Shown here piece after piece: positions 52,129 to 55,788 of a DNA stretch of 64,000 nt. Both the position numbers and the translations under genes were made by a program. The notes under the pieces were generated by a model. It was not told where the DNA came from. It was given only the letters and a program-made list of their open reading frames with translations, and did not search any database. The DNA lies in NCBI GenBank assembly GCA_020161695.1, contig JAIUOO010000023.1, forward strand, positions 1 to 64,000, read 5' to 3'. Positions within the stretch are counted from its first letter, which is position 1; each line of letters begins with the position of its first letter. This DNA comes from Pseudomonadota bacterium (GTDB lineage Bacteria > Pseudomonadota > Alphaproteobacteria > Rhizobiales > Phreatobacteraceae).

Positions 52129-52668
52129 ATGGCAACTGTCGCCATCGATCTGAAAGACGCGCTGGCGCGCTGCGGCCGGGGCGAGAAGGCGGCTCTGCGG
52201 GTGATCTACGAGTCCGAGTGCCCGGCAATGATCGGCGTGGCCCTGCGCATCGTGAAGCGCCGCGAGCTCGCCGAGGAGGTCGTGCAGGAGGCCTATGTGA
52301 AGATCTGGCGGAATGCCCATCGCTACGATCCCGAACTCGGCCCGCCCAAGGCCTGGCTCTATGCCATCGTCCGCAACCAGGCGCTCAACGTGTTGCGCGA
52401 CGGCCGGCGGGAGGATCTCGTCGACGAGGTGCCCGAGGATATGGGCTCGGCGGTGGAGGCCTATCAGGCGATCGAGCGCCTGCCGGACGCCAGCGCTCTC
52501 AGGCGCTGTCTCGACGGGCTGGAGCCGCGCCGGCGCGCCAGCCTGGTCATGGCCTATGTCGACGGCTTTTCCCACGGCGAGATCGCCGGCCGGCTCGCCG
52601 TGCCGCTTGGCACCGTGAAGGCGTGGATCAGACGGTCGCTCGTGGCGCTGAAGGAGTGCATGGGATGA
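52129..52668 (+). CDS. ECF RNA polymerase sigma factor
   Basis: A 179 aa sigma factor with region 2 (LRIVKRRELAEEVVQEAYVK, about residues 44-63) and region 4 (YVDGFSHGEIAGRLAVPLGT, then VKAWIRRSL). It is controlled by the anti-sigma protein encoded next, whose ATG overlaps its stop. ATG 52129 with GGGAGG before it is preferred; ATG 52111 would add 6 residues. The 245 bases upstream hold GC-rich hairpins but I see no clear ECF promoter. Confidence 0.92.
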   Translation: MATVAIDLKDALARCGRGEKAALRVIYESECPAMIGVALRIVKRRELAEEVVQEAYVKIWRNAHRYDPELGPPKAWLYAIVRNQALNVLRDGRREDLVDEVPEDMGSAVEAYQAIERLPDASALRRCLDGLEPRRRASLVMAYVDGFSHGEIAGRLAVPLGTVKAWIRRSLVALKECMG

Positions 52669-53369
52669 CGCACGACCTGATCGCGACGGCCGGGGAATAT
52701 GTCGCCGGCCTGATGACACCGGAGGAACTGGAAGCCTTCGAGCGGCGGATCGCGACCGATGCCGAGGCGCGCCGGGCTGTCGCCGACTGGCGCGAGAAGC
52801 TGGTGGCGCTTGACGAGACGGTGGCGCCGGTCGTGCCCTCCGAGAGCCTCTGGCCGCGGATCGAGGCGGCGGTCGGCAAGGCGCTGCCGGCGACCGCGGG
52901 CCGTCCGGGCTGGCTGGCCAGGGTCTGGGCGGATGTCTCGGCGCTGCGTTTCGCGGCGCTGGCGGGCGCGGCGGCGGCGCTGCTGCTCGCGGTCGTCCTG
53001 ATCACGCAGCCGTTCGGTGGCGCGCAGGCACCCGTGGTTGTCGCCGTCCTCAATGCGCCGAACACCAGCGAAGCCGGCGCCATCGTCGAGGCCTATGCCG
53101 ACGGGCGCATCCGCGTCGTGCCGCTGCGCGCCATTCCGGTGCCCGACGGCCGGACGCTGCAGGTCTGGACCCTGTGGGACCGGCAGGTCGGCCCGCGCTC
53201 CGTCGGCCTGATGCCGGTCGCGCGGCAGAGCGATTACCGGACGAGCGGCATGCCCCGGCCCATCGACAGCCAACTCTACGAGATCACGCTTGAGCCGGCC
53301 GGTGGCTCGCCAACCGGGCGGCCGACAGGGCCGATCCTCTATGTCGGCCGAGGCTCGGCGCCGCTGTGA
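52665..53369 (+). CDS. RskA-type anti-sigma factor
   Basis: A 234 aa membrane anti-sigma factor. The N-terminal cytoplasmic domain binds sigma (EYVAGLMTPEELEAFERRIA), one membrane helix lies at about residues 105-125, and the periplasmic RskA-type domain (LQVWTLWDRQVGPRSVGLM) fills the rest. It overlaps the sigma gene by 4 bases. Its last codons fall inside one copy of a 36-bp direct repeat, and its 3' end overlaps the transglutaminase gene on the other strand by 31 bases. Confidence 0.9.
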   Translation: MTHDLIATAGEYVAGLMTPEELEAFERRIATDAEARRAVADWREKLVALDETVAPVVPSESLWPRIEAAVGKALPATAGRPGWLARVWADVSALRFAALAGAAAALLLAVVLITQPFGGAQAPVVVAVLNAPNTSEAGAIVEAYADGRIRVVPLRAIPVPDGRTLQVWTLWDRQVGPRSVGLMPVARQSDYRTSGMPRPIDSQLYEITLEPAGGSPTGRPTGPILYVGRGSAPL

Positions 53370-54109
53370 GATCGTCCGGGGTGGTTTCCGCTGGTCTCCG
53401 AACGTCTGCGGATACGTCGCACCCGCAAATTCATGATGTGCCGCACGAGATGACGGAACAGGAAGCCCCTGAAGCCGGACAGATTGGCGCCATGGCGTGA
53501 GTAGAATGTATCGGGATCATCGAAAGTACCAAAATCGCCATTGATTCCGGTCGACTGGATCCATGTCGCCTCGCCGCGCCAGTCGATTTCCGGGGACGCC
53601 ATCCGATCGGTGCCGACGCCATATCCCAGAAGGGCCTGCGCGCCCGGCGACACCAGGCAGCGCACGCCTGCGAGGTAGGCCTTGTCGAGGATGACCCCTT
53701 CGAGTGGCAGCCAGCGCCCTTCGAAGAGCACCTCGGCCCATGAGTGTAGAATATTGTCGGGGGCGAGACGGTAGAACAGACCGGTCACCACGCCCTTCTG
53801 AAGGCTCTTGTGGATCGTCGCGCCATGGAACCGGCAGGCGGTGCCGGTGCCGCGCAGGAGCGCCATGAGCAGGATGGTCTTTGTGTTGCATTGGCCGCGG
53901 CCTTCCCCGAGCACGGCGGAGGCGCGAAGGTCATCGGACGCATTGTAGCCGAAGGCGACCTCGTCGCGGACGAAAGCGTAGACCGCGCCGATCCGTTCGC
54001 GCTCCGGCAAGTTCCTCCACTCCCGCGTCTCGATCAGCAATCGCAGCGAGGGATGCCCGAAATCGAGAAGGGTGGTGGGGCGGAGGTGAGGTGCGGCAGC
54101 ATCCGTCAT
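53339..54109 (-). CDS. Transglutaminase-like protein, probably inserted
   Basis: A 256 aa cytoplasmic transglutaminase-fold protein. The core is intact: Cys74 in GRGQCNTKT, His122 in LHSWAEVLF and an acidic partner in LPLEGVILD (Glu137 or Asp142). The last 14 codons and the stop are antisense to the end of the anti-sigma gene and to the direct repeat, so the C-terminal tail is a by-product of insertion. The DNA is visibly less GC-rich than its neighbours. Substrate and partner are unknown; it is not close to the 26128-26958 protein. Confidence 0.85.
   Translation of the reverse strand: MTDAAAPHLRPTTLLDFGHPSLRLLIETREWRNLPERERIGAVYAFVRDEVAFGYNASDDLRASAVLGEGRGQCNTKTILLMALLRGTGTACRFHGATIHKSLQKGVVTGLFYRLAPDNILHSWAEVLFEGRWLPLEGVILDKAYLAGVRCLVSPGAQALLGYGVGTDRMASPEIDWRGEATWIQSTGINGDFGTFDDPDTFYSRHGANLSGFRGFLFRHLVRHIMNLRVRRIRRRSETSGNHPGRSHSGAEPRPT
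53349..53384 (+). repeat. Direct repeat, left copy (anti-sigma 3' end)
   Basis: A 36-bp sequence that includes the last codons and stop of the anti-sigma gene. It recurs in the same orientation at 54201-54236 with 34 of 36 bases identical, the first 27 perfectly. The two copies bracket the transglutaminase gene. Confidence 0.85.
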
Positions 54110-54155
54110 GTGGTTCTCCAGCGAGTTCGATAGCCGATGGGGGAAGGCCTACATT

Positions 54156-54170
54156 CTCTAGTGACTAGAG
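54156..54170. promoter_or_regulatory. Inverted repeat upstream of the inserted transglutaminase gene
   Basis: Perfect palindrome CTCTAG-TGA-CTAGAG, 47 bases upstream of the minus-strand ATG at 54109. Its position and symmetry suggest an operator for a dimeric regulator of the transglutaminase gene, but no regulator is encoded inside the cassette. Confidence 0.45.
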
Positions 54171-54200
54171 GATCAAGCCCCTGCTGCCCGTCATCCGAGG

Positions 54201-54236
54201 CGAGGCTCGGCGCCGCTGTGAGATCGTGCGGGGCGG
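54201..54236 (+). repeat. Direct repeat, right copy
   Basis: Second copy of the 36-bp repeat (see 53349-53384), in the leader between the cassette and gatB, 80 bases before the gatB ATG. It still encodes the last anti-sigma codons and stop, out of context. Confidence 0.85.
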
Positions 54237-54315: not shown

Positions 54316-55788
54316 ATGACCGCTCATGCCAATCCGAAGAATCTCATCCCCGGCGCCACCGGCGACTGGGAAGTGGTGATCGGCCTCGAAATCCACGCGC
54401 AGGTGGCGTCCAACGCCAAGCTGTTCTCGGGGGCCGCGGTCGGCTTCGGCGCGCCGGAAAACAGCCAGGTGAGCCTCGTGGATGCGGCCATGCCGGGCAT
54501 GCTGCCCGTGATCAACGAGGAATGCGTGCGCCAGGCGATCCGCACCGGCCTCGGCCTGAAGGCGAAGATCAACTACCGCTCGGTCTTCGACCGGAAGAAC
54601 TATTTCTATCCGGACCTGCCGCAGGGCTATCAGATCAGCCAGTACAAGAGCCCGATCGTCGGCGAGGGCGAGGTGACGGTGGACCTGTCGCCGACCGAGA
54701 GCTTCACGGTGGGCATCGAGCGCCTGCATCTCGAACAGGATGCCGGCAAGTCGATCCACGACCAGAGCCCGACTCTGTCCTATATCGACCTGAACCGCTC
54801 GGGCACCGCGCTGATGGAGATCGTTTCCAAGCCGGACATGCGCTCGGCCGACGAGGCCAAGGCCTATGTCACCAAGCTGCGGACAATCCTGCGCTATCTC
54901 GGCACCTGCGACGGCGACATGGAGAAGGGCAACCTCCGCGCCGACGTCAACGTCTCCGTCCGCAAGCCGGGCGATGCCTTCGGCACCCGCTGCGAGATCA
55001 AGAACGTCAACTCGATCCGGTTCATCGGTCAGGCCGTGGACTACGAAGCGCGCCGCCAGATCGGCATCATCGAGGATGGCGGCACGATCGCGCAGGAGAC
55101 GCGCCTGTTCGATGCCGGCAAGGGCGAGACGCGCTCCATGCGCTCGAAGGAGGAGGCGCACGACTACCGCTACTTCCCCGATCCCGACCTGCTGCCGCTC
55201 GAATTCGACCAGGCCTATGTCGATGATCTCGCGAAGCACCTCCCCGAACTGCCGGACGCGAAGAAGGCGCGGCTGATCGCGCAGTACGGGCTCACCCCCT
55301 ACGACGCCTCCATCCTCGTGCTGGAGAAGGAGAGCGCCGACTATTTCGAGGCCGTTGCGCGCGGCCGCGACGGCAAGCAGGCCGCCAACTGGGTGATCAA
55401 CGAGCTGTTCGGCCGCCTGAACAAGGAAGGCCACGACGTGACGGCCTCGCCGGTGACGCCCGCGCAGATCGGCGGCATCATCGACCTGATCCAGGCCGGC
55501 ACCATCTCCGGCAAGCTCGCCAAGGACCTGTTCGAGATCGTCTTCACCGAGGGCGGCGACCCCGCCGCGATCGTCGAGGCCCGCGGCATGAAGCAGGTCA
55601 CGGACACGGGCGCGATCGAGAAGGTGATCGACGAGGTGATCGCGGCCAATCCCGACAAAGTCGAGCAGGCCAAGGCGAAGCCCACGATGCTCGGCTGGTT
55701 CGTCGGGCAGGTGATGAAGGCCTCGGGTGGCAAGGCCAATCCGGGTGCGGTGAACGAGATCCTCAAGACCAAGCTCGGCATCGAATAG
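54316..55788 (+). CDS. gatB: Asp/Glu-tRNA amidotransferase subunit B
   Basis: A 490 aa subunit of GatCAB that binds the tRNA and activates the mischarged aminoacyl end. Landmarks are [20 protein letters not shown] near residues 21-40, [15 protein letters not shown] near 96-110, [17 protein letters not shown] near 276, and the C-terminal YqeY/tail region ([20 protein letters not shown]). ATG 54316 is the family start. It is separated from gatC-gatA by the sigma/anti-sigma pair and the inserted cassette. Confidence 0.95.

Follow-up and report, generated by a model that had tools for sequence, protein, structure and literature searches.

A metal-operon gene and its candidate MerR-type promoter, probably captured behind an anti-sigma factor gene with duplication of a 36-bp target

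The Cd/Zn/Pb efflux operons of the cadR/pbrR kind, which unite a regulator of the MerR family with cadA/zntA and CDF genes, are the closest described relatives of the locus presented here. MerR-family regulators act on promoters with over-long spacers, and our locus has the same type of operator with the same spacer of 19 bp; on plasmids, moreover, the transglutaminase family to which its gene belongs lies inside such operons. Unlike them, it consists of one accessory gene standing alone among housekeeping genes, with the presumed regulator elsewhere in the genome. The locus also calls to mind the genomic islands that enter the ends of genes by way of the att sites of tyrosine recombinases. 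Like these it lies at the 3′ end of a gene, has direct repeats, and restores the interrupted gene through the left-hand copy. Yet the insert is smaller than 1 kb and contains no integrase, its only gene being one that matches PF01841, the repeat occurs nowhere else in the genome, and the frame of the cargo is broken at the junction. A further comparison is with template switching as a route of illegitimate capture of foreign DNA, with which the locus shares a lone fragment that lacks ends of its own, together with duplication of host sequence nearby; here, however, there is a direct duplication of 36 bp with little microhomology at the junctions, and the mechanics are ones that we infer.

The window analysed is a continuous stretch of 64,000 nucleotides. 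Within it an anti-sigma factor gene (RskA_C; 52665-53369, plus strand) and gatB (54316-55788, plus strand) are separated by an insert of 816 bp (53385-54200, not assigned to a strand), bounded by two copies of a 36-bp direct repeat on the plus strand. The left copy (53349-53384) comprises the last 18 coding bases of the anti-sigma gene, its TGA stop codon (53367-53369) and the following 15 bases, and the anti-sigma protein is intact. The right copy (54201-54236) stands ahead of gatB. The copies begin 852 bp apart and are identical at 34 of 36 positions, with both mismatches falling in the non-coding part. The first-pass annotation had described the repeats, the stop codon within the left copy and the position of the right copy in these terms, and direct comparison confirms all three.

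Eleven other genomes of the genus were available for comparison, the species itself being represented by one genome. In all 11 the anti-sigma gene is followed by gatB and the transglutaminase-like gene is missing, together with the rest of the insert; the sole trace of the superfamily is a distant match (E 1e-4) elsewhere in the genome of congener G006. The distance separating gatB from the end of the coding match to anti-sigma is 950 bp in this genome and 98 bp in G011, the closest congener, a difference of exactly 852 bp, and in eight further congeners it is 91-182 bp. When the joined flanks are aligned with six congeners, the right copy and the bases that follow it run on as in the uninterrupted site of G011. 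The insertion is thus specific to this lineage, and its target is duplicated; parsimony favours a gain on this branch. The earlier proposal that acquired DNA had entered at the end of a gene is thereby supported by the empty site that it suggested seeking in relatives, and the finding that would have spoken against it, close relatives all carrying the gene at this place, is seen in none of the 11. The lower GC content that it reported also holds, at 0.639 for the gene (about the 6th percentile of sampled genes) against 0.679 for the sampled genome, with a GC3 of 0.766 (about the 11th percentile). The same intergenic gap has been filled in other ways elsewhere in the genus. In G006 it is 338 bp long (L030, about 1200-1450) and contains two copies of the CCCTCACCCTAGCCCTCTCCCC type of palindromic repeat in inverted orientation to each other, while in G010 (about 1,050 bp; L027, about 450-1400) it holds a different gene, which lies on the opposite strand, encodes a protein resembling outer-membrane beta-barrels and has no direct repeats of at least 11 bp about it.

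The repeat pair is not a product of chance, an alternative that had been raised for it as a local duplication. In about 7.9 million comparisons of 36 bases, made over 1.99 Mb at four fixed spacings (852, 700, 1000 and 1200 bp), a match of 34/36 was reached once, and this we take to be the pair at 53349 and 54201. The scan covered 42% of the genome and gave no comparable two-copy case; the pairs that it met were paralogues, repeats within genes, dispersed palindromes and terminator-like repeats, as judged from the printed list. A search of the whole 4.69-Mb genome for the 27-base core of the repeat, allowing up to three mismatches, found no place beyond the two known copies, so that the same repeat does not recur beside other cargo genes, and a search of viral contigs for the 36-bp repeat found none. 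Where did the duplicated sequence come from? The 21 coding and stop bases are equal in the two copies, and G011 differs from them at three positions; at the 4-fold sites of the anti-sigma gene this genome and G011 are 27% different, a figure taken from the anti-sigma gene alone because the congener gatB match is 15 bp longer and unaligned, making a count there unreliable. Since the copies agree where G011 differs, and against this level of divergence, the 36 bp are the host lineage's own sequence, and the duplication is much younger than the split of the species.

The gene carried by the insert (53339-54109, minus strand) encodes a protein of 256 amino acids that matches the PF01841 (Transglut_core) profile with an E value of 4e-12, above the gathering score; there is no match in NCBIfam. 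Cys74, His122 and Asp142 are invariant across an alignment of 24 homologous sequences. The AlphaFold model (pLDDT 87.9) is confident except at its ends, residues 1-4 and 242-256, the latter forming a disordered tail. Its nearest solved structure is 3isr, a putative cysteine protease, with a Foldseek probability of 1.00 and an E value of 2e-5. The profile match, the three invariant residues and the fold match are thus those of the transglutaminase/cysteine-protease fold, though the protein is distant from 3isr itself (~13% identity, TM-score 0.44), and the product is predicted to be a cysteine-dependent enzyme of this fold. The first-pass annotation was right that the insert holds one transglutaminase-like gene and no recombinase, to which must be added that the gene lies on the minus strand and that its frame runs on past the end of the insert. 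The inserted DNA codes for residues as far as 241, and the codon of residue 242 spans the junction; for residues 243-256 and the stop codon the frame draws on the left repeat and on the anti-sigma gene read antisense. The donor gene thus lost its own end and stop at the junction, the open reading frame now borrowing antisense anti-sigma sequence. The ends of the homologues vary, extending from one to a few tens of residues past the conserved core.

The insert also contains, upstream of the gene, a candidate promoter of the MerR family (54146-54176, minus strand) with the layout TTGATC-CTCTAGTCACTAGAGAATG-TAGGCC. The -35 hexamer (54171-54176) and the -10 hexamer (54146-54151) are separated by the 19-bp spacer, and the latter is a poor one. 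Sequence comparison places within the spacer a dyad operator of the MerR/CadR type, CTCTAGTGACTAGAG (54156-54170, on neither strand in particular). This has one other exact match in the genome, at 145745-145759 of contig C15, between a gene for a MerR-family regulator and that of a ZntA-type P-type ATPase; a copy with two mismatches precedes a second metal ATPase gene on contig C9, and these three are the only sites in the whole genome at up to two mismatches. In five Alphaproteobacteria the gene has the same dyad 53 bp upstream of it, and seven further homologues are preceded by similar dyads. The insert therewith carries what is presumably a metal-responsive promoter of the MerR type. CadR activates a remote promoter in Pseudomonas putida (PMC8469834). 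Because the resident MerR-family regulator on C15 has an identical operator and can act in trans, the captured gene is probably expressed under metal stress.

The C15 ATPase is itself accessory, with a close copy (93%) in one congener only. It belongs to an accessory metal-resistance cluster (138000-154000 of C15; L084) with two MerR-type regulators, the ZntA-type ATPase and a CDF transporter, and the same cluster also holds LspA-like, L,D-transpeptidase-like and IS66-like genes. Derivation of the gene from this cluster was considered and rejected, as only a 29-bp match in the promoter links the two. A further CadR-like regulator of the MerR family is encoded just past the window (contig C33, 64942-65310), some 11 kb from the insertion.

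How general is the association of this gene family with metal resistance? Homologues are patchy, occurring in nine of 397 genomes of the order, and were found at 34 homologous loci in species genomes, including Actinobacteria, Burkholderiales, Rhodobacterales and Acinetobacter, and in 211 plasmid records; a search in phages gave none. On at least eight plasmids of Alpha-, Beta- and Gammaproteobacteria they lie in cadR/CDF/P-type-ATPase operons, and on a mycobacterial plasmid there are metal genes near the homologue. The plasmid neighbours may be cadR with a P-type ATPase, a MerR-type or other helix-turn-helix regulator with a CDF transporter, or a nearby cadmium transporter; two neighbourhoods are less clear, with a cation transporter near one homologue and an RND efflux subunit at the other. 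The order MerR, operator, transglutaminase, CDF recurs in several Alphaproteobacterial loci. L,D-transpeptidase genes adjoin the transglutaminase gene in plasmids of Roseibium and Roseobacter too. The family is thus found in the context of metal operons, and in open-access papers we found no description of it there. It is a widespread and apparently undescribed part of Cd/Zn/Pb resistance operons. Both this membership and the candidate promoter in the insert had been missed in the first reading of the sequence.

We consider it probable that the insert is a promoter-plus-gene fragment from a heavy-metal efflux operon under MerR/CadR control, and that it entered by illegitimate capture immediately after the anti-sigma stop codon, causing 36 bp of host target to be duplicated. 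The event has the look of a single accident, not of an element on the move, since there is no comparable pair in the 1.99 Mb scanned and none of the 40 homologous loci searched is flanked by direct repeats of at least 18 bp. Against illegitimate capture it may be said that so tidy a unit of promoter and gene is unexpected, which selection could explain. The contrary idea, that some undescribed dedicated process moves promoter-plus-gene units of metal operons singly, with target duplications of about 36 bp and an enzyme supplied in trans, strikes us as quite improbable. The locus is not an integron gene cassette, for the gene has its own candidate promoter and the repeat lacks the GTT of the attC core, GTTRRRY; searches for Rfam matches and for defence systems likewise gave none.

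Site-specific integration was the reading to which the first-pass annotation inclined, and in its present form it would have a small element without an integrase recombined into a 36-bp att site by a tyrosine recombinase acting in trans. The position at the end of a gene, the near-perfect direct repeats and the restoration of the anti-sigma end by the left copy are what such an event would leave. Yet the repeat is derived from the host, it was met neither in other parts of the genome nor in viral contigs, and no such repeats accompany the homologues at the 40 loci searched; it has no clear inverted arms, the best pair of eight bases being just 63% complementary. An evolved cassette would also normally keep its own stop codon, and that of the donor gene was lost, so we regard integration of this kind as unlikely. 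Transposition in trans, by some transposase that makes long target duplications of 36 bp, would account for a clean direct duplication of the host target on either side of foreign DNA. It is an improbable explanation none the less: a duplication of 36 bp exceeds those made by the usual families of insertion sequences, the terminal 60 bases share no inverted stretch of 7 bases where a DDE transposon or MITE has terminal inverted repeats, and the 42% of the genome that was scanned yielded no further case.

Capture could instead have proceeded by Ku/LigD end-joining at a staggered break whose ends were filled in, and this would leave the target duplicated and the donor end truncated. Six other congeners have Ku, but neither this genome nor its nearest congener G011 does, which makes classical end-joining very unlikely. 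Across the genus Ku genes occur as divergent pairs in six of 12 genomes, this genome being among the six without them. It is also conceivable that the ancestor already had the gene here and that every congener has since lost it, each time by a slipped deletion that took one repeat copy with it, since deletion between direct repeats is easy and leaves a single copy. This is extremely improbable. It needs the loss to have occurred in 11 of 11 congeners, the low GC content of the gene suggests arrival, and the two copies of the repeat are far more alike than the divergence of the genus would allow.

For illegitimate capture of an operon fragment the likeliest mechanics would be a template switch during repair or replication, restarting 36 bp upstream, or the filling-in of a staggered break, and the mode was probably template switching. 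The microhomology at the junctions is weak, amounting to a tandem of CGAGGCGAGG at the right junction only, which gives a faint hint of microhomology or slippage. Under metal stress the C15 regulator would then act in trans on the captured promoter, and the product may serve as an accessory of Cd/Zn/Pb resistance.

Our analysis suggests that a component of a resistance operon has been detached, with its promoter included, and set down among housekeeping genes, in a genome whose resident regulator can probably put it to immediate use. The main interest lies in the cargo, a metal-linked family of transglutaminases, more than in the insertion itself. Here is an enzyme of the transglutaminase fold that recurs in Cd/Zn/Pb efflux operons of the Proteobacteria and is found near metal genes in a mycobacterial plasmid.
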